A DNA stretch of 64,000 nt from a virus: the IMG/VR virus record IMGVR_UViG_3300009514_000013, positions 20,363 to 84,362 of that record; one strand, 5' to 3'. Under the pieces are notes generated by a model. That model was given only the letters and a program-made list of their open reading frames with translations, was not told where the DNA came from and searched no databases. Shown here one piece after another: positions 558-25,805 of this stretch. Positions within the stretch are counted from its first letter, which is position 1. Each line of letters starts with the position of its first letter. Position numbers and translations under genes: made by a program.

Positions 558-1646
558 ATGAGTAAGGTTGCCTTCGTTGCCGATGTTCATCTTGGCAACC
601 ATCAACGGTACGGTGGAGCTATCGAACTTGGGATGAACCGTCGTTGTCGTGAAGTTCTTGAAACTCTGAAAGTAGCTGTAGCTGAAGCTGATGAGTGCGA
701 ATCTTTCGGAGTACTTGGTGATCTCTTTGATGTTACTAAGCCAATTCCACAGATGGTGAAAGCTGTTCAGGACATCCTAGAACCATCACCATCTCCATTC
801 GTCATGATGGGAAATCATGATCAAGTCTCTTCAAGATCTGGAGATCATGCTCTAGGTCCTCTGGAGCCTGTCTCGGAAGTTATCGAAACGCCTAACCTCA
901 TCCACCTAGATGACTGTGACCTGGTTGTTTTACCTTTCCGGCCAGGTGTCGCCGATGATTGGGTTCCAGAGGACCTAGATTCCTTGTTTTCAAACAGGAG
1001 AATTCGTCCAGGTTCTGTTCTCTGTTTGCACCTAGGGATCAAAGATTCTGAAACACCTAGCTATCTGACCGGTTCTCATGACTGCATCGACGTTGATCAT
1101 GTAGCTGAGCTGATGCAGCGATATGACATCATCGCGACAGTTGCGGGTAACTGGCATGAGTTGAAGAGTTGGAAGCGTGGTAAAAGTCAGATTCTTCAGA
1201 TAGGCACTCTTGCTCCAACCGGCTGGGACAATCCGGGCCTTGATGATTACGGCCATATGGCTATCTGGGATTCGAAGACGATGACGTTTGATGTTCTCGA
1301 GATTCCAGGTCCACGCTTCTTGAAGATACGAGATCGAGAAGAGTTGAAAGCATTACCTCCTGGAGATGAATACGAGATCTACCTTGAGTGGACTGTATCA
1401 GATCCGAATGACTTGGTGAGTGCAAACCAAGAGATTGAGGAGATGATCAGTAAAGGTCGTATCGTCGCTGGTGGTGCATTCCTAGACAAGAAAGAGCAAG
1501 AGAAGAAAGCGAGAGTGTCAGCCAAAGCAGCTGCATCAAGTGAGACTTTGGAAGATGCACTATCGGCTTACATCAACACCATGGAGCTGGATGAACGAGT
1601 GACAACAGATCGGCTGATTGGTCTCACCAAGAGGTACTTGGGATGA
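558..1646 (+). CDS. SbcD/Mre11-like nuclease subunit (T4 gp47-like)
   Basis: 362 residues from ATG 558. Metallophosphoesterase motifs appear in order: DVHLG (residues 9-13), GDLFD, GNHD, an LHLG motif and then GNWHE. In this family SbcD pairs with an SbcC ATPase to process DNA ends during recombination-dependent replication; the matching SbcC-like gene lies 0.7 kb downstream. The last motif is normally GHxH, and here its first histidine is asparagine, so one metal ligand may be altered. The stop overlaps the start of the next small gene (ATGA). Confidence 0.9.
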   Translation: MSKVAFVADVHLGNHQRYGGAIELGMNRRCREVLETLKVAVAEADECESFGVLGDLFDVTKPIPQMVKAVQDILEPSPSPFVMMGNHDQVSSRSGDHALGPLEPVSEVIETPNLIHLDDCDLVVLPFRPGVADDWVPEDLDSLFSNRRIRPGSVLCLHLGIKDSETPSYLTGSHDCIDVDHVAELMQRYDIIATVAGNWHELKSWKRGKSQILQIGTLAPTGWDNPGLDDYGHMAIWDSKTMTFDVLEIPGPRFLKIRDREELKALPPGDEYEIYLEWTVSDPNDLVSANQEIEEMISKGRIVAGGAFLDKKEQEKKARVSAKAAASSETLEDALSAYINTMELDERVTTDRLIGLTKRYLG

Positions 1647-1870
1647 ATCAAATTCGCTTTTTGAAGGGCTATTCGCTTAGGGACTCGCTTAACATTTCGT
1701 TTATTTGGTCGGTTGACTCTCCACTGAGGTTCTCGCCAGATGATTCATTTTTAGGTTACTTGCACTGGTCTTTGAGTGACTATCTTGGTGGTCAAATTGC
1801 TAATTCCGTGAAAGATGTGTTGAAACAATGGCTGAAATCTCAGACGACATCCTTCGAAAATTCGAAATAG
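1643..1870 (+). CDS. xxSL-repeat microprotein, member a
   Basis: 75 residues. ATG 1643 overlaps the TGA of the SbcD-like gene. After a short leader (MNQIRFLKG) the chain follows a four-residue period: YSL-RDSL-NISF-IWSV-DSPL-RFSP-DDSF-LGYL-HWSL-SDYL, continuing to about KDVL-KQWL. Two SL pairs are written TCGCTT, the hexamer that makes up the tandem arrays at 10.7, 21.7 and 25.7 kb. No known family recognised. It overlaps the next gene by 43 bases. It belongs to a set of at least 15 similar genes in this window. Confidence 0.65.
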   Translation: MNQIRFLKGYSLRDSLNISFIWSVDSPLRFSPDDSFLGYLHWSLSDYLGGQIANSVKDVLKQWLKSQTTSFENSK

Positions 1871-2202
1871 CTGCTAAGCACTATTGGGATGAGACTTCCA
1901 AAGAGTGTTGTGTTTGCCAATGCCAGTTTAGAACTGGTGATGTCTGCCTAGTGTATGGAGACTTCGATAACCCGATTGAGAGACAGTTCTTCTACTGTGT
2001 TCCTGATGGCTACAAGCGAATACTTGCGGGTCAGTTTCCGTCAGCGTCTTCTCTTTTCGTTTCAGATGAGCACAGATTCAGCCGGATGAAGGATCTTCCG
2101 GAAGAACTACAACAGTATGTGATTGAAGGTTTCGAATGTATCGAAAAGCTCCACCTCGGAATGGAAGAGTTCATCAAAAAGGTCAAGGAGTCTATGCATT
2201 GA
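1828..2202 (+). CDS. Hypothetical protein with a Cys cluster
   Basis: 124 residues. An N-terminal cluster (CCVCQC near residue 30) and further cysteines suggest a metal site. The C-terminal third is an acidic/basic helix. It lies between the SbcD- and SbcC-like genes, so a link to end processing is possible but unproven. An AAGGAG close to its end serves the following TTG-started gene. Confidence 0.6.
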   Translation: MAEISDDILRKFEIAAKHYWDETSKECCVCQCQFRTGDVCLVYGDFDNPIERQFFYCVPDGYKRILAGQFPSASSLFVSDEHRFSRMKDLPEELQQYVIEGFECIEKLHLGMEEFIKKVKESMH

Positions 2203-2378
2203 ATTCTAGGATTCATACGATTCGGATCGATCTAAAAAATCAACTTTGTTGGGCAATAGATGATCAGGTAGAAACGAGTCTACGGTGGTCTAGAGGAGAT
2301 AGTCTTTGGGACTTTTGGGACTCTCTTCAAGTATCGCACGCTTCTTTTTTCACTTGTTGTAAAAATGAGGGCTTATGA
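2199..2378 (+). CDS. xxSL-repeat microprotein, member b (TTG start)
   Basis: 59 residues. The TTG at 2199 overlaps the upstream stop (ATTGA) and lies nine bases after AAGGAG (2184-2189), which decides the start. The chain has the family's four-residue period: KNQL-CWAI-DDQV-ETSL-RWSR-GDSL-WDFW-DSL. It ends ATGA-coupled to the SbcC-like gene. Function unknown. It sits between the two subunit genes of the SbcCD-like complex. Confidence 0.6.
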   Translation: MNSRIHTIRIDLKNQLCWAIDDQVETSLRWSRGDSLWDFWDSLQVSHASFFTCCKNEGL

Positions 2379-4036
2379 AGATACGTAGAGTCAGTGGAAA
2401 GAACTTCATGCTTTGCAAGGAGTTCGAAATTGAATTCCCCGACAGGGGATTGATCGTCATCTCCGGACCCAACGGAAGTGGAAAGTCCACGTTCGCTGAA
2501 TTCAATGCTTTTGGTCTCTTCGGAAAGACTCTTCGTGGTGCATCTCCATGGCGAAGTGGTGAAGCTGGAGAACTCACGGTCCAAACTGATGGAGTCCAAG
2601 TAACTCGGAAATCTACCAAAGGTGGAAGTCAGAAGCTTGAATGGTCTGAAAGTCAGAGCGATGATGAAGGACCTGTCTATGGTTCGTCTAGCAAAGCCAA
2701 AGAACCTCTCATGGAACTACTCGGATCATTCGAGAACTGGAGGAAGTGTTCAGTCTTCTCATCATCAGACGCAGCTCTCTTCTCCATGGCTACGGACAAG
2801 ATCCGCAAAGAACTTTTGGAAGACCTACTAGGGATCGATAAATTCGATTCAGCTCTGAAGAAGTGTCGTGAAGATCTGAGCCAGGTTGGTTCGAAATACC
2901 AGACTCTTGAGATGGAGATTAGACACACTCAGGTTCTTCTAGAGGAGAAGAAAAACCAACTCCGGCAAGCTTCAGAAGCTATTGAGGAATGGGTGGACCT
3001 TAAGCCAGTCCGATCAACCTCATCAAAACTAACCACGAAGCTTGATGAGATCCGTAAGCAACAGCGCGACGTCGGTAAACAAATCCGGCATCTTGGCTCT
3101 CAAGGCGCTGAGGAAAAAGCCACCCTCCGACAGATTCAAAAACAGCTGTCATGCATTGACGTGGGCCAGTGTCCAACTTGCGGACAAGACGTGGGAGACG
3201 ATGTGCTCGATCCTTTGAAAGGTGAGGTATCGAAGATTGAAGCACAACTGGAGAAGTCTCATCTTGAAGTTACCAAACAAATTGATGAGTTGGAGACTCG
3301 ACTGGATGAACTCCAAACCGCTGGTGATTCCCTCGACAAAAAGATCTCCGATTCAAAACTCAAACAACGTGAGTTCGAACAGGCGAAGCATGTGAAGGAG
3401 AAGTTCGCCAACATCATTGATAATGCTCAGGAAGAGGCCAACGAACTGTCGGAGAAGATCAACGGTTTAGCATCAGAACTTGAGACGATCTCGTTTGAGA
3501 GACTTGAACTCCAATACGTAGAAAAGATCCTTGGGATGAAAGGCGTACGTGCTCATATTCTCGGGAAGTCACTTGATGGTCTCGAATGTGTGGCCAATTC
3601 ATACCTCAACCGGATGACTGATGAGAACGCTACTCTGAAGCTGAAGCCTTACACGGAGAAGAAGACGGGTGGTGTCTCAGATTCGATCTCTATGGAAATA
3701 GGTGAATATGGTGGAGGGCTCGGATACAAGGCGTGCTCAGCTGGCCAGAGACGCCGAGTAGACTTAGCTCTTCTTCTTGGACTAGCTGTGGTCTCAGATG
3801 CTTCGAAAGGTAGTTCTCCTGGGATGTTGTGGTTTGATGAGGTCTTCGATGCTCTAGACGATCAAGGAGTTCAGGCGGTATCAGAGATTCTTCACGAGAT
3901 CTCAAAGGAGCGTCCTGTAGTGGTCATCTCTCATCACCCAGCCATTCTTGGCTACCTCGATCCTGTGGCGAAGTTGAGAATATGGACGGAAAGGGGTTCA
4001 GATGGTTTCTCGAAAATCAAAACCCAAAGCAGATGA
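2375..4036 (+). CDS. SbcC/Rad50-like ATPase (T4 gp46-like)
   Basis: 553 residues. SMC-type layout: Walker A GPNGSGKST (residues 31-39), a long coiled coil, a zinc-hook CPTCG near residue 266, a second coiled coil, an ABC signature SAGQRRRVDL (about 454) and Walker B LWFDEVFDALDD (about 483). It is short for SbcC, as phage gp46 homologues are. It should dimerise through the hook and drive the SbcD-like nuclease on DNA ends. RBS GAGG lies before ATG 2375; the start overlaps the stop of member b. Confidence 0.93.
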   Translation: MKIRRVSGKNFMLCKEFEIEFPDRGLIVISGPNGSGKSTFAEFNAFGLFGKTLRGASPWRSGEAGELTVQTDGVQVTRKSTKGGSQKLEWSESQSDDEGPVYGSSSKAKEPLMELLGSFENWRKCSVFSSSDAALFSMATDKIRKELLEDLLGIDKFDSALKKCREDLSQVGSKYQTLEMEIRHTQVLLEEKKNQLRQASEAIEEWVDLKPVRSTSSKLTTKLDEIRKQQRDVGKQIRHLGSQGAEEKATLRQIQKQLSCIDVGQCPTCGQDVGDDVLDPLKGEVSKIEAQLEKSHLEVTKQIDELETRLDELQTAGDSLDKKISDSKLKQREFEQAKHVKEKFANIIDNAQEEANELSEKINGLASELETISFERLELQYVEKILGMKGVRAHILGKSLDGLECVANSYLNRMTDENATLKLKPYTEKKTGGVSDSISMEIGEYGGGLGYKACSAGQRRRVDLALLLGLAVVSDASKGSSPGMLWFDEVFDALDDQGVQAVSEILHEISKERPVVVISHHPAILGYLDPVAKLRIWTERGSDGFSKIKTQSR

Positions 4037-4286
4037 GAACCGTTCCCTAGAAGACGGTACTCCGCTTCTTGCTCTCGAGGTTGATACAAATAGAGAGCGT
4101 CGACCAAAAACCAAACCTAAGACTCCACTTGAAGAGAAGTTCAAAGAGCAAAAGAGGATCCTTCAGGTGTACGTGATGAGACAACTTCAGTGGGGTGAGG
4201 TCGAGGGTTTCAAACCTATTGAAGTTTCTCTGTTGAAGGAAGCTTTGGAGGTGCTCGGATGGCTACCAACAGACTTGAAATTGTGA
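4002..4286 (+). CDS. Hypothetical basic protein
   Basis: 94 residues, starting inside the 3' end of the SbcC-like gene. The first half is Lys/Arg/Pro-rich and probably disordered (RRPKTKPKTP); the second half is helical. No family recognised. Its stop overlaps the GTG start of the next xxSL gene. Confidence 0.5.
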   Translation: MVSRKSKPKADENRSLEDGTPLLALEVDTNRERRPKTKPKTPLEEKFKEQKRILQVYVMRQLQWGEVEGFKPIEVSLLKEALEVLGWLPTDLKL

Positions 4287-4429
4287 ATTTCGTTGCTCCA
4301 GAACTTGAAATTCCTGCGAGGTATTCTCTTTTTTTCATTGGTATTTCTACATCAATCGAATTTTCTCTACTCGACTCATTAATAAATGAGTTACAATTTC
4401 TCTATGGCTACAAGTCAGAAACGACCTAG
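4283..4429 (+). CDS. xxSL-repeat microprotein, member o
   Basis: 48 residues from GTG 4283, which overlaps the upstream TGA (GTGA); an in-frame ATG at 4259 is an alternative. The period-four core is EFSL-LDSL-INEL after a hydrophobic leader (ELEIPARYSLFF). Its 3' end overlaps the start of the ParB-methyltransferase gene in another frame. It is too short for ordinary gene finders. Start and coding status are inferred from the shared pattern and coupling. Confidence 0.5.
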   Translation: MNFVAPELEIPARYSLFFIGISTSIEFSLLDSLINELQFLYGYKSETT

Positions 4430-5648
4430 AGCAAATCAACTCGCCCATATCCTTTCTGATCTCAGAAAACTCGCTGTCCCAATCGAATCCCTCAATCCAG
4501 ATCCAGAAAACACCAGACGTCACTCGGAATCTGATCTGAACGTCATCAAGTCTTCTCTTGATGAACTCGGCCAGCACCGACCACTTGTTGTCCAGAAGGA
4601 AGGTCGGATCATCCGCGTTGGTAATGGTACTTGGACAGCTGCAAAGGAATTAGGGTGGAAATGGATAGCCGCGGTTGTTGTTGACGAAGACCGTATGACT
4701 GCCACAAGACGATCAATCCTCGATAACCGAACTGCTGAACTCTCTGAGTGGGATACTGATCAGCTCGTAAAGCGCCTTGATGAAGCCAAGGAAGACGATT
4801 GGGAACTAGAAGACTTCGGCTGGGATGATGAAGAACTTGCTAGGTTGACTGCTTCTGAGGTTGAAGATGAAGAGGTAGATTTTGAAGAGGTTGTCGAGGA
4901 TGAAGTTCCGGAGCCTCCCAAGAAAGCAGTTTCGAAGCTAGGTGATGTTTGGAAACTGGGTGATCATATATTGGTTTGTGGCGATTCTCGCGATTCGCAA
5001 TCTTATTCATCTTTTGATTCTTCGTTTCATATGGTTCTGACAGATCCTCCTTATGGAGTTGGGTATGTAGGTGGTACTGGTTTGACCATCCAAAATGATA
5101 CTGAAGATGGGTTGGAAGAAATGTTGACGAATGTTTTTGGCAATGTTTTGGAAAAGTGTGAAAAAGGATCTATGTGGTACGTTTTTGGACCACCCGGTCC
5201 ACTTGGAATAATATTTGGGAGAGTTTTATTATCGTTTGGTGTATTGAGACAGATTCTCATATGGGTGAAAGACCGATTGGTTTTAGGAAGATCTCATTTC
5301 CATTACCGCAACGAGCCGATTTTTTATGGATGGAGTGGAACAAGTTCCAGACATCCTCCTCCAAACAGAAAGCAGGATTCTGTTTGGGAGTTTGATCGAC
5401 CACATGCCAACAAAGAACATCCTACGATGAAACCTCTGAATCTACTTCAGCATGCGATCGTGATGGGATCTTCGAAAGGTGATTTTATAGTTGATCCGTT
5501 TTCTGGTTCTGGATCTACACTAATAGCATCTGAGGCTACCGAAAGAATTTGTTGTTCTGTTGAAATCGATCCTAGATACTCAGATGTCATCATCGAACGT
5601 TGGGAGAACTTCACTGGTAAGAAGGCAAAGAGAATCAAGAAAGGTTAG
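4386..5648 (+). CDS. ParB-like domain fused to DNA adenine methyltransferase
   Basis: 420 residues. The N-terminus has a ParB/Srx-type nuclease fold (IESLNPDPENTRRHSESDL, then GQHRPLVV and VGNGTWTAAKELGW). An acidic linker follows, then a beta-class N6/N4 methyltransferase: DPPYGVGY (about 219) as catalytic motif IV and DPFSGSGST (about 370) as the AdoMet-binding motif I. The architecture is common in phages and plasmids, where it methylates phage DNA, often to evade restriction. ATG 4386 or ATG 4404 could be the start; neither has a clear SD. It ends tail-to-tail with the minus-strand lipoprotein operon. Confidence 0.88.
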   Translation: MSYNFSMATSQKRPRANQLAHILSDLRKLAVPIESLNPDPENTRRHSESDLNVIKSSLDELGQHRPLVVQKEGRIIRVGNGTWTAAKELGWKWIAAVVVDEDRMTATRRSILDNRTAELSEWDTDQLVKRLDEAKEDDWELEDFGWDDEELARLTASEVEDEEVDFEEVVEDEVPEPPKKAVSKLGDVWKLGDHILVCGDSRDSQSYSSFDSSFHMVLTDPPYGVGYVGGTGLTIQNDTEDGLEEMLTNVFGNVLEKCEKGSMWYVFGPPGPLGIIFGRVLLSFGVLRQILIWVKDRLVLGRSHFHYRNEPIFYGWSGTSSRHPPPNRKQDSVWEFDRPHANKEHPTMKPLNLLQHAIVMGSSKGDFIVDPFSGSGSTLIASEATERICCSVEIDPRYSDVIIERWENFTGKKAKRIKKG

Positions 5649-6790
5649 CAACCCGGCCAGAGAATCTCTGAGATGAATACTGGGATCTGATTGGTATGGA
5701 TCGGAAACAACCTTCCATCGGTTTCGTTTGCAATGTCATCAAAAAATGCTTGTAGCTCAACAAATCCGTAGAATGTGATACCTCTCGCTTTCAACTCGTT
5801 TGCCACATCTTGCTCTGTTAACCCTCTTGCACTTTGACCATGTTCATCAGCAAACAAGAAGATGAATCGATTTGCTCCTGGTCTCCAATGTACGAACCTT
5901 CCCTTAGCCGCATCACTGATGATGTCGTATGACAGTTCGCTACTTCCAAATGTCCTGGTCATAGAAGCCAGGTTGTTCGGGTCAGGGCATGGTCCAACTG
6001 GAAATGTCATGCCTAGCGAATAGCATTCTCTATTTGGAGAAGCTGTTGAGGTGGTGTTCCCACCAGGCATGTCGATTGGGAACATAGCCACATCAGTGGA
6101 ATCGTCTTGAGTCTGTCGATTCCAGTAGTCAGCCAGCGAATCTCCAACAACAGAGACACGAGTTCCCATTGAACAACTACGGTCGATAATCACTACGATG
6201 TCGATTTTGACTACGTCCCCTGTGTTTGGAACGTCATCCACAACTCCATTACAATCGTTATCGATCTGGTCACATCGTTCGGCGAATGGAAGAACCTGAC
6301 CTTCACAAATCCACTTTCCATAATCACAATAAGAAAGTCCTATTTTGCATGGTGGGTGTGTAGCTTTCCAAAACTCAGCATCGAAGCACCAGTCTCTGGC
6401 GATCCCGTCATCAACCAACCCGTTGCAGTCGTTGTCTGAACCGTCACATTCTTCTGGTTGTTTCTTGTAATCGGTTGAACAGACGATCTCTTCCCCGTTG
6501 CAGACAGTCCGTCCCCCTCGACAGATGCCCAACCCACATGATTCTCCGACCCCACCGATCCGGTCGTCGACTTCACCATTGCAGTCATTGTCAATACCGT
6601 CACAAATCTCATCGCTTGGAAGAATGTCACCGACACATGAGACACCTATCGATGATGTTTCAGTGGTTCCAGGCCGACATTGCCCAACTCCCGAAGTTCC
6701 ACTTGGTCCCGAATAGCAAGAACCGTAGTGACTCACGAGTGGTTCTTCACACGCATATAGAAGTACCAAGAGGATTGAAAGGCTTCTCAT
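5645..6790 (-). CDS. Lipoprotein with three MopE-type metal-binding motifs and a VWA domain
   Basis: 381 residues, minus strand. A lipoprotein signal ends LLYAC near residue 14. Three Cys/Asp motifs of the form C-D-x-x-D-N-D-C-N-G-x-V-D-D lie at roughly residues 60, 112 and 165, the pattern called the MopE-type putative metal-binding motif. A von Willebrand A domain follows with MIDAS DRSCS (D-x-S-x-S). Further cysteines suggest a secreted, disulfide-rich fold. Such motifs are typical of myxobacterial and other deltaproteobacterial surface proteins. In a phage this looks like a lysogenic-conversion or surface-remodelling cargo gene. ATGA-coupled to the upstream HExxH lipoprotein gene. Confidence 0.85.
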   Translation of the reverse strand: MRSLSILLVLLYACEEPLVSHYGSCYSGPSGTSGVGQCRPGTTETSSIGVSCVGDILPSDEICDGIDNDCNGEVDDRIGGVGESCGLGICRGGRTVCNGEEIVCSTDYKKQPEECDGSDNDCNGLVDDGIARDWCFDAEFWKATHPPCKIGLSYCDYGKWICEGQVLPFAERCDQIDNDCNGVVDDVPNTGDVVKIDIVVIIDRSCSMGTRVSVVGDSLADYWNRQTQDDSTDVAMFPIDMPGGNTTSTASPNRECYSLGMTFPVGPCPDPNNLASMTRTFGSSELSYDIISDAAKGRFVHWRPGANRFIFLFADEHGQSARGLTEQDVANELKARGITFYGFVELQAFFDDIANETDGRLFPIHTNQIPVFISEILWPGC

Positions 6791-7230
6791 CTTTCTCTCT
6801 CCCTCACTTGCTTCGTGTCAGATGCAAGTCTACGAAGATCGTTTTCTACCAGGTTGAAATCAACATCGTGCAACTCAGCTGCTTTGAGCCCATCTTCCAT
6901 GTGACGAACTCTGTGAGCTAGCTCATGTGGTAGGCATCCATCCATGGTCAGTTCTCCAAACACTCGTGCAGTGATCCTAGCTTCATGTTGATAGTACCAG
7001 CATGGGCACCCAGGCTTGCGAATTACTCTCCATGGAGCATTGAGTTGGATATGGATTTCCCAAGTTTCTGGGACCGTTTCGTAACTCTGCATGGATTCTA
7101 GGGCTTCTGGAAGATCTGGCCACGTCCACGAAAATGCTTCCTCTGTGACGATCACTGTGGTATCACCTACGACTATATCTGACCCACAACCACCTGAAAA
7201 CATTGAAAAGAATATGTTGACTAGTGCCAT
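6787..7230 (-). CDS. Putative lipoprotein with HExxH (zincin-like) motif
   Basis: 147 residues from the ATG at 7230 on the minus strand (an in-frame ATG at 7272 adds 14 residues). The N-terminus is hydrophobic and ends FSGGC, a plausible lipobox. A HELAH motif near residue 105 matches the HExxH zinc site of metallopeptidases, and HME and HDVD lie downstream. It may be a short membrane-anchored peptidase or a degenerate zincin. Its stop overlaps the start of the MopE-VWA gene, so the two are co-translated. The third zinc ligand is not certain. Confidence 0.65.
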   Translation of the reverse strand: MALVNIFFSMFSGGCGSDIVVGDTTVIVTEEAFSWTWPDLPEALESMQSYETVPETWEIHIQLNAPWRVIRKPGCPCWYYQHEARITARVFGELTMDGCLPHELAHRVRHMEDGLKAAELHDVDFNLVENDLRRLASDTKQVRERER

Positions 7231-7272
7231 AAAGGTGCTTACCGTATTGGTATGGATGAGAGACAAAGCCAA

Positions 7273-7665
7273 ATGACTATAACAGACCGCTATTTACCCC
7301 CGACACACATCGGGTCCAGAACAGCTGCACTAATTGAGAATATCGAGGCTATCGATATTCGACAGGAAGAAGATGGATACTTTGATGCTGACACAGTTGT
7401 TGCCATCAAACGAAAATCCATTCACAAAGGACTCAAGGTGGCTCGGGATGCTGGTCGCAACGAGAACGAGTTTCGGATTCGTGAGCTTGAAATGGAAGTA
7501 GAGATGTTGAAGTCTCAAGTCGAACGGCTGATCTCCACATTGGAGTTGCACCAGAAAACATCATCGGCTGAATCAAAGATGCTCAAGGATGCCCTTGCTC
7601 AAAATCACCTGATGCTGACTTCTCTCTGGAAATCCTTTGAGCTGAAAAAGGCGGGAAAGAAATGA
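7273..7665 (+). CDS. Coiled-coil protein
   Basis: 130 residues from ATG 7273 (ATG 7252 is an in-frame alternative). The C-terminal two thirds form a heptad-rich coiled coil (residues about 60-125: RIRELEMEVEMLKSQVERL). It is divergent from the lipoprotein operon, about 40 bases away, so a bidirectional promoter must lie in or near 7231-7272. It overlaps the next gene by ATGA and could be a trimerisation partner or chaperone of the beta-helix protein. Confidence 0.6.
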   Translation: MTITDRYLPPTHIGSRTAALIENIEAIDIRQEEDGYFDADTVVAIKRKSIHKGLKVARDAGRNENEFRIRELEMEVEMLKSQVERLISTLELHQKTSSAESKMLKDALAQNHLMLTSLWKSFELKKAGKK

Positions 7666-8810: not shown

Positions 8811-8867
8811 GTCATCACTCATTGGTAGGTAGGATTCAAAGACCGATACATGAAAGGATAAGATGGG

Positions 8868-9155: not shown

Positions 9156-9168
9156 AAGGAGATAGACA

Positions 9169-9555
9169 ATGTATAGACAAGGCGATGTGTTCATTTTTCC
9201 AGTGAAGGATCCTGGTTCTGAGAATGTTGGTCCAGAAGTGAAGCGAGACAACGGTCGAGTGGTGCTTCAATACGGTGAGGTGACTGGTCATGCTCATGCA
9301 ATTCATGAATCACCTGTTCATTTGTTTGATTTCAGCGATGACTTTCTGAAATCGAATGAGTCATTTCGAAAGAACGTTGAAGATGTCATTGGAGCGCCAT
9401 TGGATCCTCAAATCGATCGGTTGTTGACGGTTGGTGAAATGTCGGCACTAGTTCACGAAGAGCACGATACAATTCCGATTCCTCCAGGAACGTACATTGC
9501 AAGGAGGCAGCATGAGTACAGCGATCGTGAGCGTGAACGATACGTTGAGGATTAA
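9169..9555 (+). CDS. Conserved protein of the RQGDV/GEVTGHAHAI type
   Basis: 128 residues. It opens YRQGDVFIFPV and contains GEVTGHAHAI, HEEHDTIPIPPGTY and RRQHEY, hallmarks of a small conserved bacterial family that I recall usually next to DUF6745 genes. That partner is present here 0.13 kb downstream. Predicted all-beta, cytoplasmic, function unknown. RBS GGAGAT lies at 9160-9165. Its 3' end is overlapped by an xxSL gene. Confidence 0.7.
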   Translation: MYRQGDVFIFPVKDPGSENVGPEVKRDNGRVVLQYGEVTGHAHAIHESPVHLFDFSDDFLKSNESFRKNVEDVIGAPLDPQIDRLLTVGEMSALVHEEHDTIPIPPGTYIARRQHEYSDRERERYVED

Positions 9556-9715
9556 GAGGGATCTTTATAGGTACACACCGAATTCACTACGTTGGGATCT
9601 CATGCATGGTGTCGCTCACCCTTTGGGAGATGCATTACGCTTGTCTTTGATTCTCAAGGTTGAGGCAGAACTAGAAAGGTATAAAAATGGAGAAAATCAA
9701 AGAACTAACACCTGA
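9512..9715 (+). CDS. xxSL-repeat microprotein, member c
   Basis: 67 residues. ATG 9512 follows AAGGAGG (9501-9507). Period-four core: NSL-RWDL-MHGV-AHPL-GDAL-RLSL-ILKV-EAEL. It overlaps the upstream gene by 44 bases and the downstream DUF6745 gene by 29 bases, so it is wedged between two genes that are normally neighbours. This suggests insertion into a pre-existing pair. Confidence 0.65.
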   Translation: MSTAIVSVNDTLRIKRDLYRYTPNSLRWDLMHGVAHPLGDALRLSLILKVEAELERYKNGENQRTNT

Positions 9716-10640
9716 ACAGAAAGCCGAGATGGTTGTCTGGCGAAAGCGATGGTTTGACATTGGGTCATGTTGCGATCCAGCTGACAAGCCAAAAGCAGAA
9801 GCAGCCATCTCGAAGATGTACGAGCTCATCGGTCAGACTGCACCAAAGTTCATTTGGTGCAAGAGTCCACTTGATGCAAATCGAGAGATTCACCGCTACT
9901 CAAAAGGGTTACCGGCTGATCATTCTCTCGAAGGTGAAGACATCGAAATCCAGGGGGCATACCAATGGGGGCAGATGGACTCCTACTGGATTTCTTTCTA
10001 CCTCTTCTGTCGGGATGTAGTTGGTGTTGAGTACTCTGAGAAAGATTCAGAGACGTTGGACCTATGGTCTGAGATTGCTCAGTCTTGTGGTTGGTGGTGG
10101 CCTTATGAAGGTGTGTGTTTTGTGTCTGACCGCCCTCTTGCGGTTCATTGGGAAGACGATCGGGATCCTCCTAGGATTCACAATCCGAATGGACCAGCTG
10201 TGGAGTACCGTGATGGATTCAAGGTCTACGCTATTCGGGACATCCGGGTAGAGCCAAGGATTATCGAGAATCCAGAAACCATCACGTTCGAGGAGATACT
10301 CAGAGAGCGAAACGCTGAGATCCGTAGAGTCCTACTCAGGCAATACGGTGAAGAGCGATTTGTGAATGATTCGCGAGTGAAGATGTTTGCCCAAGATGAA
10401 GAAGGTATCCTCTATTCGATTGATGGTGAGGACATCGACTTCATGTTGCTCAAGGTCATCAATTCAACGCCTGAACCAGATGGTAGCCTTAAGCCGTATT
10501 TTCTCACGACGTTCACTAGTACTGAGACGACGAGAGAGAATACTGGTATCGACTACCACGGACCATGGACACCTCACGCAGCTAGAGCGATCAGCTTCAA
10601 GATTCATCCAGACAAGTTCAATTGTTTGATGGAGACCTAG
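9687..10640 (+). CDS. DUF6745-family protein
   Basis: 317 residues. Recognised by GWWWPYEGVCFVSDRP, HNPNGPAVEYRDGF, a segment like IENPETITFEEI, RNAEIRRVLL.QYGEERF, and VINSTPEPDG near the C-terminus, all typical of DUF6745. In bacteria this family often occurs beside leucine-rich-repeat-like proteins and the RQGDV protein. Function unknown. The pair is probably cargo taken from a host or plasmid. Confidence 0.75.
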   Translation: MEKIKELTPEQKAEMVVWRKRWFDIGSCCDPADKPKAEAAISKMYELIGQTAPKFIWCKSPLDANREIHRYSKGLPADHSLEGEDIEIQGAYQWGQMDSYWISFYLFCRDVVGVEYSEKDSETLDLWSEIAQSCGWWWPYEGVCFVSDRPLAVHWEDDRDPPRIHNPNGPAVEYRDGFKVYAIRDIRVEPRIIENPETITFEEILRERNAEIRRVLLRQYGEERFVNDSRVKMFAQDEEGILYSIDGEDIDFMLLKVINSTPEPDGSLKPYFLTTFTSTETTRENTGIDYHGPWTPHAARAISFKIHPDKFNCLMET

Positions 10641-10641: not shown

Positions 10642-10827
10642 ATGAAGAAAGTTGAAATGAAACCTCTTAGCTCCTCGCTTAGGTCCTCGTTTAGCTCCTC
10701 GCTTTGGTCCTCGCTTGGCTCCTCGCTTTGGTCCTCGCTTGGCTCCTCGCTTAGGTCCTCGCTTGGCTCCTCGCTTGGCTCCTCGCTTAGGTCCTCGCTT
10801 GAGGAAGAGTTGAGGTCTCGACGTTAA
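10642..10827 (+). CDS. xxSL-repeat microprotein, member d (expanded array)
   Basis: 61 residues: leader MKKVEMKPL, then 11 four-residue units (SSSL, RSSF, SSSL, WSSL, GSSL and so on), then EEELRSRR. The leader is almost identical to that of member n at 25605. The stop TAA lies inside the palindrome at 10823-10838. The product is strongly biased to Ser and Leu with W/G/R at the variable position. Function unknown. Confidence 0.6.
   Translation: MKKVEMKPLSSSLRSSFSSSLWSSLGSSLWSSLGSSLRSSLGSSLGSSLRSSLEEELRSRR
10669..10800 (+). repeat. 12-bp in-frame tandem repeat, 11 units
   Basis: Eleven consecutive 12-mers of the form nnn-TCC-TCG-CTT (one has TTT). The first codon alternates AGC, AGG, TGG, GGC. 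The unit length is a multiple of three, so gain or loss of units keeps the frame. The same unit type recurs at 21665-21820 and 25632-25787. Confidence 0.95.
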
Positions 10828-11498: not shown

Positions 11499-12233
11499 AT
11501 GGCAAAAGCACGAATATCCGAAAAGAAATACAACCTCCTCCTAGAAGCATTTCGCGAAGTCCCTGGAAGGACATGGAAGGCATCTGAGATCGCCGGAGTG
11601 CAGCCTAAAACCGCACAAAGAGCTTGGGAACGCGGTTGGGATGATCCGATATGGGCTCGAACTCCGATCAGAGAAATCGTCGAGAAAGAACAGATTGCAG
11701 CTAGAGCAGAGCTTCAACGCCAAGGTGAAAAAGAGAAAGCCAAAGACACGGCTGATCGCGAGAAAGCTAAACTCGACATTGTCCAACAACGAACCAAAGA
11801 AGCAGCCGGTATCAGGAACTCCACCACCAACGTTCTCGCCATCATTCAGAACCAAGGGAAATTCCTACAGAGTACCCAACGCATCAACGATCATCTCCTG
11901 GTCAAGTTTGAAGAAGATGTCAAAGCAAACAAGATCTCGGTGAAGGAGTACACTCAGATTATCAACAGCCTGGCCAATGCTGTGACGAGAGCTGTTCAAG
12001 GTCTGAAGACCGGAATGGAAGCAGCAAGACTCTACCTTGGAGAACCTGAGCAGATCGTTGGTTTCGTCCAACCTCAGGTGAACTATCAACTCGACTACAA
12101 CAAAGCAGAAGCTACATTCGGAGCTGAGTTCATCAAGAAGGTCATGAGAGACTTGGCGGAAGAGAGGATGACTGCAGAGGTCGATCGCTTCTTCGAATGG
12201 GAACATGAGCAAAGGAACATGGAGTTGAACTGA
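11499..12233 (+). CDS. Putative terminase small subunit
   Basis: 244 residues from ATG 11499 (TTG 11481 and ATG 11484 extend it by 5-6). The N-terminus reads as a helix-turn-helix (WKASEIAGVQPKTAQRAWERGWD) like TerS DNA-binding domains. A long charged coiled coil follows (about residues 65-110), then an oligomerisation-like region and a C-terminal helix. It precedes the terminase ATPase by 1.7 kb, with a block of microproteins and membrane proteins between. A TerS role is inferred from fold and position. Confidence 0.6.
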   Translation: MAKARISEKKYNLLLEAFREVPGRTWKASEIAGVQPKTAQRAWERGWDDPIWARTPIREIVEKEQIAARAELQRQGEKEKAKDTADREKAKLDIVQQRTKEAAGIRNSTTNVLAIIQNQGKFLQSTQRINDHLLVKFEEDVKANKISVKEYTQIINSLANAVTRAVQGLKTGMEAARLYLGEPEQIVGFVQPQVNYQLDYNKAEATFGAEFIKKVMRDLAEERMTAEVDRFFEWEHEQRNMELN

Positions 12234-12409
12234 TGAAGCAGTTGGAGATGAAAAATGTCAGGCGTGATCTTGATAAGACTCTTGGTTCCTCCATTGTCAT
12301 GAGACTCGATGCGTTCATTACGTCATCTATTTTTCATCCACTCATGGATTCGCTTCATCAGTCACTTGTAGGCTCAGTACGTCGTGAAGAGAGAAGAGAG
12401 TTGAAGTGA
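12233..12409 (+). CDS. xxSL-repeat microprotein, member f
   Basis: 58 residues; ATG 12233 overlaps the upstream TGA. Leader MKQLEMKNV resembles MKKVEMKPL of members d and n. Units: RRDL-DKTL-GSSI-VMRL-DAFI-TSSI-FHPL-MDSL-HQSL-VGSV, with one TCGCTT. First of three consecutive family members. Confidence 0.65.
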   Translation: MKQLEMKNVRRDLDKTLGSSIVMRLDAFITSSIFHPLMDSLHQSLVGSVRREERRELK

Positions 12410-12594
12410 TGGAGCCGCTTATGAATGAAGTGAATTCAAAGCTCAAGCATCCGCTCATGGATCGACTCTATACATTGCTTTCATTTCAACCTCATATTCT
12501 ACACCCGCTCGATGTTTCTCTTTGGGGATCACTAGGAAGATCATTCCTAGTAGGAGTTCGTACATGTTTGAACGAAAAGACGAGTTCGAAATGA
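12409..12594 (+). CDS. xxSL-repeat microprotein, member g
   Basis: 61 residues; ATG 12409 shares a base with the stop of member f. Units: NSKL-KHPL-MDRL-YTLL, then HPL-DVSL-WGSL-GRSF-LVGV-RTCL. Most TCGCTT hexamers are lost but the period-four hydrophobic pattern remains, so the pattern rather than the DNA repeat seems to be retained. Its stop overlaps the next start. Confidence 0.65.
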   Translation: MEPLMNEVNSKLKHPLMDRLYTLLSFQPHILHPLDVSLWGSLGRSFLVGVRTCLNEKTSSK

Positions 12595-12734
12595 AATTCA
12601 GGTCTTTGAATGAGACCTTGGCAGAGTCGCTTGAGTACTCCATCGAGGGCGCTCTCAGATTTTCACTTGAGAAACCGCTTAGGGATTCTCTTATCCGGTC
12701 GCTGGTGATGCATCTTTCCATGAAGAGTGAATAA
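12591..12734 (+). CDS. xxSL-repeat microprotein, member h
   Basis: 47 residues from ATG 12591, in an ATGA overlap with member g. Units: RSL-NETL-AESL-EYSI-EGAL-RFSL-EKPL-RDSL-IRSL-VMHL, an almost unbroken ten-unit series despite diverged codons. An in-frame ATG at 12564 is possible. Third of the f-g-h trio. Confidence 0.65.
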   Translation: MKFRSLNETLAESLEYSIEGALRFSLEKPLRDSLIRSLVMHLSMKSE

Positions 12735-13263: not shown

Positions 13264-13580
13264 TGAATGTAAATGACTTCGCCAAAAAGCTTGGATGGCC
13301 ACCACCTACTGACGATCCAGCTTTCCGGACAATTGCGTTGATCTTCAAGCGATACGTCGTCCATTACATTAAGCTCTTCTTCATCTGGACTGTCCCGATG
13401 TTCGCACTTGGCGGTCTTCTCTCCCTTTGGGCTTACCTAGGCATCAGGACCTCTCTTTGGATCTGGACCCCTGATTCTTACATCATGTACCTAGCCTGGG
13501 TTTGGGGCTTCAATTCGATGTTGACCTTTCCAGTACTCGTACCGTTTGCTTTGTGGGTGGCAGACAAGGTTGGGTTGTGA
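13263..13580 (+). CDS. Two-span membrane protein (holin-like topology)
   Basis: 105 residues. A soluble N-terminus (GWPPPTDDPAFRTIALIFKR) precedes two or three hydrophobic segments (YIKLFFIWTVPMFALGGLL, and from YIMYLAWVWGF to VLVPFALWVADKV). Holin-like by topology only; no endolysin gene lies beside it. Its stop overlaps the GTG of member i. Confidence 0.6.
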   Translation: MNVNDFAKKLGWPPPTDDPAFRTIALIFKRYVVHYIKLFFIWTVPMFALGGLLSLWAYLGIRTSLWIWTPDSYIMYLAWVWGFNSMLTFPVLVPFALWVADKVGL

Positions 13581-13765
13581 AGATGTCGTCAATCCGATTG
13601 GATATTTATTCCTTTTTGGAAGAGCTACCTAAACTAGCAATGATGGATACAGTACTGGATCTGCCATGTAGTGCTCGGCTTGACCTCTATGAGGGTCTTG
13701 ATACTCCATTAAGGGAGTCGCTCAACTTTTCAATGCAAAAGACGATTGAGTTCGAGGTTGGGTGA
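13577..13765 (+). CDS. xxSL-repeat microprotein, member i
   Basis: 62 residues from GTG 13577 in a GTGA overlap (ATG 13583 is an alternative). The C-terminal half shows the period: DTPL-RESL-NFSM-QKTI-EFEV. The N-terminal half (SIRLDIYSFLEELPKL) is less regular. Directly abuts member j. Confidence 0.55.
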   Translation: MKMSSIRLDIYSFLEELPKLAMMDTVLDLPCSARLDLYEGLDTPLRESLNFSMQKTIEFEVG

Positions 13766-13954
13766 ATGGCGAAATTGAAGCTATGTGGTACGTTCTCCCT
13801 ACGGGATCATCTCCAAATTGAGCTTGAAGATGTCGTTGAAAAGAGCTTGTCTGAACCAGTACACGATATCATCATCGGTGAAATCTATGACATCCACAAA
13901 TCGCTTAATACCTCTCTGTGGCGACACACTCACGTAACCTTATATGAGCGTTAA
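13766..13954 (+). CDS. xxSL-repeat microprotein, member j
   Basis: 62 residues; ATG follows the TGA of member i without a gap. Units: FSL-RDHL-QIEL-EDVV-EKSL-SEPV-HDII-IGEI, then KSL-NTSL. Its stop codon lies inside the palindrome that precedes the terminase gene, exactly as member d ends in site 1. Confidence 0.6.
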   Translation: MAKLKLCGTFSLRDHLQIELEDVVEKSLSEPVHDIIIGEIYDIHKSLNTSLWRHTHVTLYER

Positions 13955-15955: not shown

Positions 15956-15963
15956 TCAAGATC

Positions 15964-16286: not shown

Positions 16287-16298
16287 GAGTAAGGAACG

Positions 16299-16586: not shown

Positions 16587-16621
16587 TGAAACCAACACAA
16601 GGAAAAGGAAAGGTAACAACA

Positions 16622-17497: not shown

Positions 17498-17598
17498 GAA
17501 AGGTAGAATGGGATCATTATTTCGGGCGTATGGCCGGTAGATCTTCAAAAGAGAATGAGATCATGCGTGCTATGGGTACAATTCGTGGTTGGTGATCA

Positions 17599-17877: not shown

Positions 17878-17878
17878 G

Positions 17879-17937
17879 TCATCAAAAGTGATGGGTTAAG
17901 CGTGTATGAGTACGCATCTCATCAAAAGTGAGGAGAT
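17879..17937. repeat. Two 13-bp direct repeats TCATCAAAAGTGA before a start codon
   Basis: Copies at 17879-17891 and 17919-17931, 40 bases apart. The first forms CATCA-AAAG-TGATG. The second is enclosed by ATCTC...GAGAT, which would pair the GGAG of the following gene's RBS. Possible translational control element. Confidence 0.45.
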
Positions 17938-18516: not shown

Positions 18517-18527
18517 AAGGAAGGGCG

Positions 18528-19400
18528 ATGAAACAATTGTATGACTTCTCGAATGATCGGAAGAGCGAATCCTTGATTGAGACAGTCAAGAAAGAATTTG
18601 AAGTGAAGAAACCAATCCTCGACCCACAAAAAGCTGCCGAGTATGCGAATGAGCACGGATTGCCTGTGCCGGGGCGGCGCAAACGACATGGTGGAACATT
18701 AGATGGATCGCCGTTCTTGATTCGGGAAATGAGGAACGGGAAGTTGTCCGACCGCAAATGGGTCAGTTGTAGTTCGTATGGGTATGGACATGCTTTTATG
18801 TTAGTCCCAACCGGAGAAACACGAAAATTGATGGAGCAAGAAGATGAGCCCAAAAACAAAGATACAAATCGCTCACGACATCAAGGAGGCAGCAGAAAGG
18901 CTGAAGAGTGCTTTGGTGAGTCTTCCAGCGAACAGTTTAGCGGTGGAGACCATAGAGGAACTAGTGCTAGCTGTGATTACAGCCAACCTAAAACTGCTCA
19001 AGCGTGCGACCAAACCTCAGCCCACGGAGTCAAGCCAAGAGGAGGATGGCGATGGTTAGAACTTGGTGAGTCATTGTCTGAACATGATCAACGTCGATGG
19101 TCAGCACAGAATCCAAACAAATGGGCTATGAAGAAAAAACTCGACATGTTTGCGGATGAGTCTAGATGGCGCCGTCCCATCTTCGAAGGCAAAACAGATG
19201 TGGAACGCGCTATACTTGGTGAGATTCCAGACAAAAGGCGCCATAGGCCTGAATTAGCGGGTGTAGAGAGATGGTCTTGTCTCCGTCATGACAAGAGAGA
19301 TGAAGACCATTGGCTTGCTTCAAATATCCCAGGAGCACGTTCTGATTTCGATACAGCCGTTGGCTACGATTGTATGTACGGTGAAGAGTTCGAGGAATGA
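18528..19400 (+). CDS. Hypothetical protein, possibly two genes read as one
   Basis: 290 residues from ATG 18528 (ATG 18513 is in frame). Residues 1-105 and 185-290 look like normal protein. The middle (about 110-180) is Ser/Gly/Gln/His-rich and coincides with an overlapping +1 frame at 18844-19059 that looks like a real protein. Either this is a single protein with a disordered linker, or two genes whose separating stop was lost; TTG 19074 would start the second part. No family recognised. Confidence 0.45.
   Translation: MKQLYDFSNDRKSESLIETVKKEFEVKKPILDPQKAAEYANEHGLPVPGRRKRHGGTLDGSPFLIREMRNGKLSDRKWVSCSSYGYGHAFMLVPTGETRKLMEQEDEPKNKDTNRSRHQGGSRKAEECFGESSSEQFSGGDHRGTSASCDYSQPKTAQACDQTSAHGVKPRGGWRWLELGESLSEHDQRRWSAQNPNKWAMKKKLDMFADESRWRRPIFEGKTDVERAILGEIPDKRRHRPELAGVERWSCLRHDKRDEDHWLASNIPGARSDFDTAVGYDCMYGEEFEE
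18844..19059 (+). CDS. Overlapping small helical protein
   Basis: 71 residues in the +1 frame inside the preceding entry. ATG 18844 follows GGAGCAAGAAG. Composition is that of an ordinary helical protein (DIKEAAERLKSALVSLPANS). Its tail is acidic. If both frames are translated this is a dual-coding stretch of 216 bases. Confidence 0.5.
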   Translation: MSPKTKIQIAHDIKEAAERLKSALVSLPANSLAVETIEELVLAVITANLKLLKRATKPQPTESSQEEDGDG

Positions 19401-19952: not shown

Positions 19953-20978
19953 ATGAAGAAAATCCTAGTCCTAGGTGGTGGTCATCAAGGCAAGATCATC
20001 GCAAAAGAACTCGCACCTGATTTCGAAGTAATGGTTGGTGACATTTACGAGACCGTCTTACCAAACGTGGATCCTATATATCTTGATGTTACAGACACTG
20101 AGATGCTCAAGGACGAAGTCCTCGGATACGATCTCGTCATTGGTGCTCTCCCATCGAAGTTCGGATACCAAGCTGTTAGAGCCGTCCTAGAGGTCGGTGT
20201 TCCAATGATAGACCTCTCGTTCTGTCCAGAAGATTTGATGGAGTTAAATGGTCTAGCCAAAAAGAATGGCACCTTCCTCATTTCAGATTGTGGTCTCGCT
20301 CCAGGTCTCTCCAATCTCATTGTTGGCTACGAATTCAGCAAGAGAGAAGTAGAGAACATCAAGATCATGGTTGGTGGAGTGGCCAAAGACATCGATGCAC
20401 CGTATGGGTACAAGGTCAGCTGGTCTGTTGATGACCTCTTAGAGGAATACACTAGACCTGCAAGGATTCGTATTGATGGAGAGAATGTCCAGATCCCAAC
20501 GCTCACCAACTACGAGGTTGTAAACATCCCAGGAGTTGGAATCATGGAAGCGTTCTGCACCGACGGTCTCCGATCACTACTGCGAATTCACGGCCCTAAG
20601 AACCTCGTTGAGAAGACTCTCAGGTGGAGAGGTCATGTTGACCAGATCAAGCCACTGATACGTGATGGAACGTTCGTAGAGACCATCACAAGAGAATGCC
20701 AGAATGGTGAGGATCTCGTGGTGATGAGGATCGAGATGGATGATGATGTCATTCAGACAGTCATCAAGGCATCTGATGGAATCTCCGCTATGTCTCGTGG
20801 AACAGCTCTCACTACAGCGATGACAGCTAGGTTGGTTCTGGAAGATGATGTGTTTGTGAATTCGAAAGGAGTCTACTTCATGGAAGACTTCTTACCAGAA
20901 GAGTCGATGAAGTTGTTAGAGATGTTGGAGACTCGAGCTGGGGTAGCGTTCAATTGGTTCAAGAAAGGAGAAGAGTAA
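19953..20978 (+). CDS. Saccharopine-dehydrogenase-like oxidoreductase
   Basis: 341 residues. N-terminal Rossmann motif ILVLGGGHQGKIIAKEL (residues 4-20), then DLVIGALPSKFG and LISDCGLAPGLSNLIVG, and a C-terminal catalytic-like domain; this is the saccharopine dehydrogenase / lysine-6-dehydrogenase-type superfamily. An uncommon phage auxiliary metabolic gene. It could act on lysine-derived or carboxynorspermidine-type substrates; the substrate cannot be read from sequence. No SD is evident; 46 bases precede it. Confidence 0.85.
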   Translation: MKKILVLGGGHQGKIIAKELAPDFEVMVGDIYETVLPNVDPIYLDVTDTEMLKDEVLGYDLVIGALPSKFGYQAVRAVLEVGVPMIDLSFCPEDLMELNGLAKKNGTFLISDCGLAPGLSNLIVGYEFSKREVENIKIMVGGVAKDIDAPYGYKVSWSVDDLLEEYTRPARIRIDGENVQIPTLTNYEVVNIPGVGIMEAFCTDGLRSLLRIHGPKNLVEKTLRWRGHVDQIKPLIRDGTFVETITRECQNGEDLVVMRIEMDDDVIQTVIKASDGISAMSRGTALTTAMTARLVLEDDVFVNSKGVYFMEDFLPEESMKLLEMLETRAGVAFNWFKKGEE

Positions 20979-21643: not shown

Positions 21644-21850
21644 ATGAAGAAATTGAAATCGCTTAGGTACTCGCTTGGCTCCTCGCTTTACTACTCGCTT
21701 TACTCCTCGCTTGAGGACTCGCTTAGGCACTCGCCTAGGTACTCGCCTTGGTCCTCGTTTAGCTCCTCGCTTTACTCCCCGCTTTGGTTCTCGCTTTGGT
21801 CCTCGCTTAGGTTCTCGCTTTGGTCCCAAATGTGTTTAACAAAGGAATAA
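21644..21850 (+). CDS. xxSL-repeat microprotein, member k (expanded array)
   Basis: 68 residues; ATG 21644 after a weak GTGGGTGA. Leader MKKLKSL, then 13 units (RYSL, GSSL, YYSL, YSSL, EDSL, RHSP and so on), then WSQMCLTKE. It stands alone rather than coupled to a preceding plus-strand gene. Confidence 0.55.
   Translation: MKKLKSLRYSLGSSLYYSLYSSLEDSLRHSPRYSPWSSFSSSLYSPLWFSLWSSLRFSLWSQMCLTKE
21665..21820 (+). repeat. 12-bp in-frame tandem repeat, 13 units
   Basis: Thirteen 12-mers with core CTCGCTT; a few carry CTCGCCT, CTCGTTT or CCCGCTT. More diverged than the array at 10669. On the opposite strand it gives an artefactual Lys/Arg/Pro frame. Confidence 0.92.
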
Positions 21851-24532: not shown

Positions 24533-24901
24533 ATGGAGAACACCGACGAGATTCGTATCCATCTCACCACCCTGGTGCAGAACGCTGCGAGAGCCTGCAA
24601 AATAGCCGGTCTCGAGCATGAATTCAGAAAGCTGTCCCAAGTCCAGGTAGATTTCAAAACCCGCCTAGCGTGCGTTTTCAAAGCTGTCAGGCTGGTGGAG
24701 ACTTCCATCTTGGTGAATTGGGGTAAATCGCTCATGACCCCAGGTTTTTCTGGCCTAGCCGCGGAATCTATTGCTATCGTTCGATTAGGGGCTATCACTG
24801 CTCTCACGGAGGCTGATGTAGATGTCAAAAGGAAATGGATCCAAGAACTGGTCAACCGTTCCGACTGTAAAGTTCTCTCCTACTCGAAAGAAGGAACTTG
24901 A
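24533..24901 (+). CDS. Hypothetical helical protein behind a palindrome
   Basis: 122 residues, helical, amphipathic, with a hydrophobic patch but no membrane span. Higher GC at some codons than neighbours. The start is set by ATG 24533 immediately after site 4. Overlaps the next gene by 80 bases, so one of the two 3' or 5' boundaries may be wrong. Confidence 0.5.
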   Translation: MENTDEIRIHLTTLVQNAARACKIAGLEHEFRKLSQVQVDFKTRLACVFKAVRLVETSILVNWGKSLMTPGFSGLAAESIAIVRLGAITALTEADVDVKRKWIQELVNRSDCKVLSYSKEGT

Positions 24902-25211
24902 GAAGCTATTCGAAGAACGTGTCGAACAGTACCTGGGTGATCCGACGATCAAAGAATTGGTGCAACGATACAGAAAGAAGATCGATCTACAAGAAGAGAT
25001 CTTCGCATCTCCAATTGATGTTCATGAAGCTTTCGACGCGGTAGTTGTTGCCCACTGCTTCGCAGATCACGAACCAGTTGACCTAGCGAAGAAGGTTGAA
25101 AGTAACCTAGTTATGGTTCGTGCGATGTGTCGCCACTACAAGAAACTTGCTGACATCTGGAAAGAGAACTGTGATGCTCTTTGCGAATTGGTGAAAAATG
25201 ACGACGTTTGA
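24822..25211 (+). CDS. Hypothetical protein
   Basis: 129 residues from ATG 24822 with GGAGG upstream. Basic start, then helical (RKKELEKLFEERVEQYL; KVESNLVMVRAMCRHYKKL). No family recognised. Overlaps both neighbours. Confidence 0.5.
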   Translation: MSKGNGSKNWSTVPTVKFSPTRKKELEKLFEERVEQYLGDPTIKELVQRYRKKIDLQEEIFASPIDVHEAFDAVVVAHCFADHEPVDLAKKVESNLVMVRAMCRHYKKLADIWKENCDALCELVKNDDV

Positions 25212-25608
25212 AGAGAAGTACCCAAATGTGAAACCAGCTCCTCTTCTTTCGGATAGCGATCGAAATAGGTGGATCGTAGAAAAAGAACCACAGAAGGTAG
25301 AGACAGAAGATCTCGTTGTAGAGGAGAAAAAGGCTGAACCTGTTGTTGATCGATGGGCGAAGATTGGCAAACTCTCTCTCAATCTCGACGGGATCGGTGG
25401 TACAGTTCCAGAACTTCTCTTGCTCCTCATTGCAGAAGTTAGAGAGTTGGTGATGCAACCAAAACAAGAAACAGTTGCTTCAGTGGTTCAATCCAGACCG
25501 GATTTGCAGAATGCTTTGAAAGACAGCATCGGAGAGATTCAAAAGATGATGGGTGCTCTCAACCGAGGTAAGCCAGGAACTCCATTGAAGAAGGTGAATG
25601 GAGAATGA
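25198..25608 (+). CDS. Hypothetical protein
   Basis: 136 residues; Lys/Glu-rich linker then a helical domain (VPELLLLLIAEVRELVM). The stop overlaps the start of xxSL member n. No function assigned. Confidence 0.5.
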   Translation: MTTFEEKYPNVKPAPLLSDSDRNRWIVEKEPQKVETEDLVVEEKKAEPVVDRWAKIGKLSLNLDGIGGTVPELLLLLIAEVRELVMQPKQETVASVVQSRPDLQNALKDSIGEIQKMMGALNRGKPGTPLKKVNGE

Positions 25609-25805
25609 AGAAGGTTGAAATGAAACCTCTTGGCTCCTCGCTTTGGTTCTCGCTTGAGGACTCGCTTGAGGACTCGCTTGAGTTCTCGCTTGAGGACTCG
25701 CTTGAGGACTCGCTTAAGGACTCGCTTTGGTCCTCGCTTGGCTCCTCGCTTTACTCCTCGCTTGGCTCCTCGCTTTGGTTCTCGCTTAGAGAGGAGTTGA
25801 AGTAG
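25605..25805 (+). CDS. xxSL-repeat microprotein, member n (expanded array)
   Basis: 66 residues; ATG 25605 in an ATGA overlap. Leader MKKVEMKPL is identical to member d. Thirteen units follow: GSSL-WFSL-EDSL-EDSL-EFSL and so on, then REELK. The variable positions favour E-D here and R/W/G in member d, so arrays expanded independently after a shared leader. Confidence 0.6.
   Translation: MKKVEMKPLGSSLWFSLEDSLEDSLEFSLEDSLEDSLKDSLWSSLGSSLYSSLGSSLWFSLREELK
25632..25787 (+). repeat. 12-bp in-frame tandem repeat, 13 units
   Basis: Units such as GAGGACTCGCTT, GGCTCCTCGCTT, TGGTTCTCGCTT. All retain TCGCTT. Several neighbouring units are identical, suggesting recent slippage. Confidence 0.95.

Follow-up and report, generated by a model that had tools for sequence, protein, structure and literature searches.

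What are the microproteins with a period of four residues that recur between positions 1643 and 25,805 of a 64,000-nucleotide stretch of viral DNA (hereafter the window; positions 20,363-84,362 of the 84,362-bp IMG/VR virus record IMGVR_UViG_3300009514_000013), and how do they relate to the DUF6745 gene (PF20530) that lies among them? Positions marked "record" refer to the full record, all others to the window. We propose, with a probability of roughly 0.45, that these microproteins are the stand-alone, multiplied form of a repeat module carried inside DUF6745 proteins of other phages, and that they may act in trans with an array-less DUF6745 core as a tunable counter-defence system; sequence comparison and analogy with a characterized phage protein both lead to this proposal.

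The first-pass annotation had listed 15 frames with a strict four-residue xxSL period, and we evaluated each with two scores (hydrophobic residues at every fourth place; S-hydrophobic dipeptides) against 5000 shuffles per protein. Nine frames (1643, 9512, 10642, 12233, 12409, 12591, 13766, 21644 and 25605) exhibited a clear period of four (p ≤0.003, both scores), and three (2199, 4283 and 13577) were marginal, their p values of 0.004-0.05 being singly non-significant across 290 open reading frames (ORFs). The remaining three found no support: frame 11285 lacks a start codon, opening with ATC (p 0.04 and 0.37), frame 22200 gave p 0.28 for hydrophobicity, and frame 22551 gave p 0.34 and 0.24. 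The top scores among the 290 window ORFs of 45-80 residues belonged to the named frames and to out-of-frame shadows of the crisp copies, as we call those with strict xxSL. That motif was confined to 10642, 21644 and 25605; the divergent copies (1643, 9512, 12233, 12409, 12591 and 13766) vary in their Ser and Leu codons and frequently lack Ser, but still place a hydrophobic residue at each fourth position. The family in this phage is heterogeneous, comprising two grades, crisp arrays and divergent copies. In crisp copies the in-phase hydrophobic fraction was 0.76-0.94 for a period of four, 0.33-0.38 for five and 0.38-0.44 for seven, which rules out a heptad coiled coil (period 7/3.5) and a pentapeptide repeat (period 5), as first noticed. 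The phage carries about ten such stand-alone genes of 47-75 residues, and the annotated absence from the virion genes holds, with no array past 25,805. Coupling to the preceding gene was seen as overlaps of 1-4 nt at most copies, but other genes here overlap likewise (e.g. 13263, 18513).

The crisp copies (three in the window and six upstream of it in the record) are built of a 12-bp unit, codon1-codon2-TCG-CTT, in which TCG and CTT are almost invariant, codon1 is mostly TGG, GGC, AGG, GAG or TAC, and codon2 is TCC, GAC, TTC, TAC or ACC. Most share end caps (N-cap MKKVEMKPL, C-cap LR-x-EL-K). Pfam and PHROG searches with the microproteins returned weak, unrelated matches only, megablast of positions 1000-25000 against named phages gave no match, and tblastn of the microproteins against phages and IMG/VR gave nothing, low-complexity filtering probably discarding such queries. 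Cas2 matches of the array in PADLOC were rejected as low-complexity artefacts, and the PDB match 9ikm (E 0.08) as a TASX repeat whose Ser register coincides by chance.

A DNA-pattern scan of IMG/VR with flank-based classification was used to find and sort arrays; the first pattern caught mostly SLSL microsatellites, and those records then served as a control set. The arrays occur in three settings: inside DUF6745 (50 ORFs, 49 loci), inside a second protein that we call scaffold B (42 loci), and free-standing as short genes of their own. The annotation's statement that no family with this pattern was known therefore does not stand, since both DUF6745 and this second, unnamed phage family contain embedded arrays of the same format. 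A pattern scan of genome contigs gave mostly chance matches and some bacterial embedded arrays. Within DUF6745 relatives (L133, L077, L088, L052, MW202476) the array sits between "...F[IV]WC.SP" and "WGQ...YW[IL][AS]FY"; at that site the window's DUF6745 is short and unrepeated. The fused arrays in DUF6745 and scaffold B always read in the xxS(L/V) frame, which is set by their flanks, and the window arrays match the DUF6745-array format (12-bp units, xxS(L/V) in register, x1 mainly W, G, R or E; also in L088, L133 and MW202476). In MW202476.1 (46595-47872, "hypothetical protein") the phage-encoded units are identical in format to those of the window (WSSL, GSSL, RSSL, ESSL; same frame), but the array lies within one gene, whereas the window has about ten stand-alone copies and a core without an array. 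Compared as a split-off member of the DUF6745 arrays, the window's set has the xxS(L/V) register and a DUF6745 core in the same genome, with no array inside that core. One DUF6745 relative (L443:14769-16496) carries an embedded xxEL array (SELDREL) in place of xxSL, and hence the constant pair can change.

We compared the fused and split forms across records. DUF6745 was present in 15/18 IMG/VR records with stand-alone array genes, the window's own included (G000, G002-G007, G009-G014, G069, G070), and was array-less in all 15, with that of G070 called so from its 333-residue length and its match to G009. By comparison, DUF6745 was found in 0/30 virus records with simple SLSL repeats and in 0/19 scaffold-B records. 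Conversely, a stand-alone array gene was found in none of 14 records with an embedded-array DUF6745, nor in the complete phage MW202476. Because split records carry only array-less DUF6745 and fused records no stand-alone array, the two forms are mutually exclusive among the records compared. Fisher tests, on an earlier count of 13/15 and on 15 versus 13, gave p values of 1e-9 and 3e-8, which are too small because the split records represent only about eight lineages. Unrelated phages possess stand-alone xxS(L/V) families, each with its own caps, mostly with 13-17 units per gene and 5-39 genes per multi-copy record. Array microgenes directly follow DUF6745 in the window (one base between that gene and 10642) and in G010, G012 and G013. 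The annotation had also suggested paired inhibitors or chaperones of the preceding genes; as a general rule this found no support, those genes varying from copy to copy, but one partner recurs, an array-less DUF6745 gene accompanying nearly every multi-copy family. Such gene families are a real and widespread type among phages, some of which keep the fast-evolving tetrapeptide module fused while others distribute it over many trans genes. No cultured carrier of a split family turned up in INPHARED.

The largest family seen, in L398 of G012 (39-8252), comprises some 39 xxSV microgenes in tandem, immediately following a DUF6745 gene. A 260-kb virus record (L491, G069) holds an array-less DUF6745 with at least 8 xxSV microgenes (MNLENVG...IREERG) on both sides of it. 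In L450, the 300 nt past DUF6745 hold a frame that by eye resembles a divergent period-four gene.

Exchange, gain and loss of whole units were evident. Window arrays have unit blocks of up to seven in common, and four-unit blocks were shared nine times, where shuffling the unit order predicts 0.6. In phages other than the window's, G004 and G005 are 99.6% identical over 36 kb; in the 20.9 kb around DUF6745, just two indels between them exceed one base; they measure 12 bp and 36 bp, both lie within array genes, and they equal exactly one and three units (the pair is also labelled L445 versus L446). From 6,827 to 19,072 of that stretch, 17/17 substitutions fell within arrays, although those beside the 36-bp indel may partly come from alignment around it. 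With units swapped between dispersed arrays and near-identical phages differing by whole 12-bp units, the earlier suggestion of a self-expanding microgene is well supported.

The published relative in kind is mycobacteriophage Tweety gp54 (phrog_3416), whose 12-bp units have fixed third codon positions and varied first and second ones (PMC2884959), and whose mutants with more or fewer repeats escape the Phrann gp29/gp30 prophage defence (PMC9262239, PMC8549241). Like the window arrays, gp54 has units with a variable and a constant pair, unit-number variation among relatives, and unique N- and C-terminal ends; unlike them, its units are [GWQ][SY]AA with AA as the constant pair instead of S(L/V), and its 40-48 units lie in one gene. 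Counter-defence has been demonstrated experimentally for gp54 only. Homology of the gp54 flanks to DUF6745 was rejected (hhalign probability 0.2% against the DUF6745 alignment; no Pfam match in gp54). With moderate confidence, we consider by this analogy that the arrays may work like gp54, and we claim no membership in its family. Scaffold B (MCKFFS...[array]...PSFDGKxWRLHSG; no Pfam family) embeds the same xxSV array in one protein, but flank comparison rejected homology to DUF6745, and no stand-alone copies occurred in the stretches read; its loci are L209:9892-10668(-), L156, L215 and about 40 others. The Bordetella phage BMP-1 gene bbp36 also has an in-gene repeat, VR2, with copy number varying between isolates; as described in the text of PMC2884959, its unit is 24 bp in a single gene, unlike the 12-bp multi-gene arrays here. 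The literature searched, which covered few subscription journals, contained no account of the multi-copy split form, of its mutual exclusion with the fused one or of the DUF6745 link, and no paper in it named DUF6745.

Taken as the stand-alone form of the DUF6745 module, the split system would consist of an array-less core plus a panel of 50-75-residue array proteins supplied in trans, each predicted to be a long helix of about 13-17 x1-x2-Ser-(Leu/Val) units between phage-specific caps. Within each phage the units would be homogenised, and recombination would add, remove and swap them, so that x1x2 pairs and unit number change fast with Ser-Leu/Val retained. The array proteins may bind or act with the core, and the complex would serve counter-defence, its specificity set by repeat number and x1x2 residues. 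A further-reaching version, which we hold unlikely, is a combinatorial system of one invariant core and up to about 39 exchangeable microproteins; x1x2 pairs and unit number would then form a recombination-editable recognition surface offering many specificities at once, with the fused form as its single-specificity version.

Several observations weigh against this proposal. Translation, action with the core and tunable counter-defence are parts that we infer, the last by analogy to gp54, and with gp54 flanks that lack homology to DUF6745 and AA as the constant pair, that analogy may be one of format only. A fold search with the DUF6745 model gave no PDB relative (in BFVD, only DUF6745 and uncharacterised phage proteins), and comparison of DUF6745 with PADLOC gave no match of note. 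Three stand-alone-array records had no DUF6745 (G001, with arrays at the contig end; G068, whose single copy borders the limit of the stretch read; and G008, which is 16.7 kb long); a weak match in G001 was not counted, being a DGPA-repeat protein that we take to be YwqK-like. The 18 split records are not independent, forming about eight lineages as estimated from DUF6745 similarity (those of G002, G004, G005 and G007 are 93-100% identical). Finally, L132, L452 and L453 carry array-less DUF6745 with no array detectable in the stretch read, so the array is not obligatory.

Structure prediction, as the annotation had recommended, gave a single AlphaFold2 helix for the 25605 product (residues 9-65; predicted local distance difference test, pLDDT, 73), a model based on a shallow, repetitive alignment. 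In the fused DUF6745 of L133 the core was confident, mostly above 85-90, and the array was helical but below 50. These predictions, together with fused/split exclusivity, the uniform unit number of the stand-alone genes and their location outside the virion region, would also suit arrays that serve a host-takeover or regulatory DUF6745 protein with no defence role, whether in cis or in trans, as helical spacers or oligomerisation modules. We regard this as possible but doubtful, because a pure spacer accounts neither for up to 39 different copies per phage nor for the clustering, in arrays, of the substitutions and unit changes that separate near-identical phages.

We also investigated codon usage, which bears on whether the arrays are DNA-level elements (recombination hot spots, protein-binding sites or minisatellites) with open frames as by-products. 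Each phage has one nearly fixed Ser plus Leu/Val codon pair, and the pair differs between phages: TCG-CTT in the window, TCT-GTA in L164, TCA-GTA in L238, TCA-CTC in L239, TCG-CTG in L088, TCG-GTC in L133 and AGC-CTC in MW202476. Position entropies confirm a fixed and a variable pair with fixed third codon positions in the 12-bp unit. The near identity of units within a phage, third positions included, the unit indels, and arrays that are open in other frames and strands as well are what a DNA-level element would give. Such an element is nevertheless improbable: Ser is kept between phages though its codons vary (TCG, TCT, TCA, AGC), the divergent window copies hold their every-fourth hydrophobicity with mixed codons, stand-alone genes of unrelated phages possess start codons and caps and fall within the narrow range of 13-17 units, and the fused arrays keep their xxS(L/V) frame. 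Because amino acids are conserved and codons are not, these results argue for protein-level constraint on the pattern, with DNA homogenisation of units within genomes.

Alternatively, the array could have been lost from DUF6745 and its copies multiplied as a mobile or amplifying microgene of no benefit to the phage. A copy number ranging from 1 to about 39, a crisp-to-worn gradient within one genome and the lack of catalytic features fit such neutral expansion, which we nonetheless judge quite improbable, since worn copies retain both hydrophobic period and open frame, and the split form occurs in about eight phage lineages with DUF6745 array-less wherever it was found. Membrane-active or lysis-related amphipathic helices, suggested by a predicted single helix that carries Leu at each fourth residue, are very improbable, since an exact period of four winds the hydrophobic stripe 40 degrees per unit, so that by geometry no side of the helix would consistently face a membrane, x1x2 positions often hold Asp, Glu or Arg, and the fused arrays sit within a soluble-looking DUF6745 fold.

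If the trans-acting DUF6745 module is real, phages would hold a fast-evolving repeat module either fused to a core or as a gene family working in trans, many "hypothetical" phage proteins would become interpretable, and DUF6745 would gain a testable role. Counter-defence tuned by repeat number, with gp54 as its one known case, would extend to many uncultured phages, offering a natural protein repertoire diversified by whole-unit recombination instead of point mutation. The coordinates of the genes concerned are summarized in Table 1.

Table 1 DUF6745 gene and period-four microgenes of the window and its record.
Feature	Positions	Strand	Description
DUF6745 gene (PF20530)	9687..10640	+	317 aa; Pfam E=1e-42; without embedded tetrapeptide array
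Crisp xxSL array microgene	10642..10827	+	61 aa; begins 1 nt past DUF6745 stop; N-cap MKKVEMKPL
Crisp xxSL array microgene	21644..21850	+	68 aa; N-cap MKKLKSL
Crisp xxSL array microgene	25605..25805	+	66 aa; N-cap MKKVEMKPL, C-cap LREELK; ATGA overlap with preceding gene
Crisp copy upstream of window	record 3915-4109	-	array reading
Crisp copy upstream of window	record 4616-4802	-	array reading
Crisp copy upstream of window	record 5745-5952	-	array reading
Crisp copy upstream of window	record 7422-7721	-	array reading
Crisp copy upstream of window	record 12480-12698	+	array reading
Crisp copy upstream of window	record 17172-17345	+	array reading
Divergent period-four microgene	1643..1870	+	75 aa; mixed Ser/Leu codons; 78% of in-phase places hydrophobic
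Divergent period-four microgene	9512..9715	+	67 aa; Shine-Dalgarno AAGGAGG
Divergent period-four microgene	12233..12409	+	58 aa; N-cap MKQLEMKN similar to MKKVEMKP
Divergent period-four microgene	12409..12594	+	61 aa; tandem with neighbours
Divergent period-four microgene	12591..12734	+	47 aa; tandem with neighbours
Divergent period-four microgene	13766..13954	+	62 aa
Marginal candidate	13577..13765	+	GTG start; 62 aa; tandem with 13766; p 0.02 / 0.006
Marginal candidate	2199..2378	+	TTG start; 59 aa; p 0.006 / 0.016
Marginal candidate	4283..4429	+	GTG start; 48 aa; p 0.05 / 0.004

Other genes of the window were also recorded. Microgene 1643 is flanked by genes for an SbcD-like phosphoesterase (402-1646) and an SbcC-like ATPase (2375-4036). 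An N6/N4 DNA methylase fused to a ParB_N domain is encoded at 4386-5648, followed by a protein with MopE-type putative metal-binding motifs (5645-6790, minus strand), which are common in myxobacteria-like hosts and may hint at the host. The apparent terminase large subunit (13970-15955) contains an intein (splicing domain plus LAGLIDADG endonuclease) at GK|T of its Walker A motif, and the phage carries a saccharopine dehydrogenase-like gene with both Pfam domains (19953-20978).

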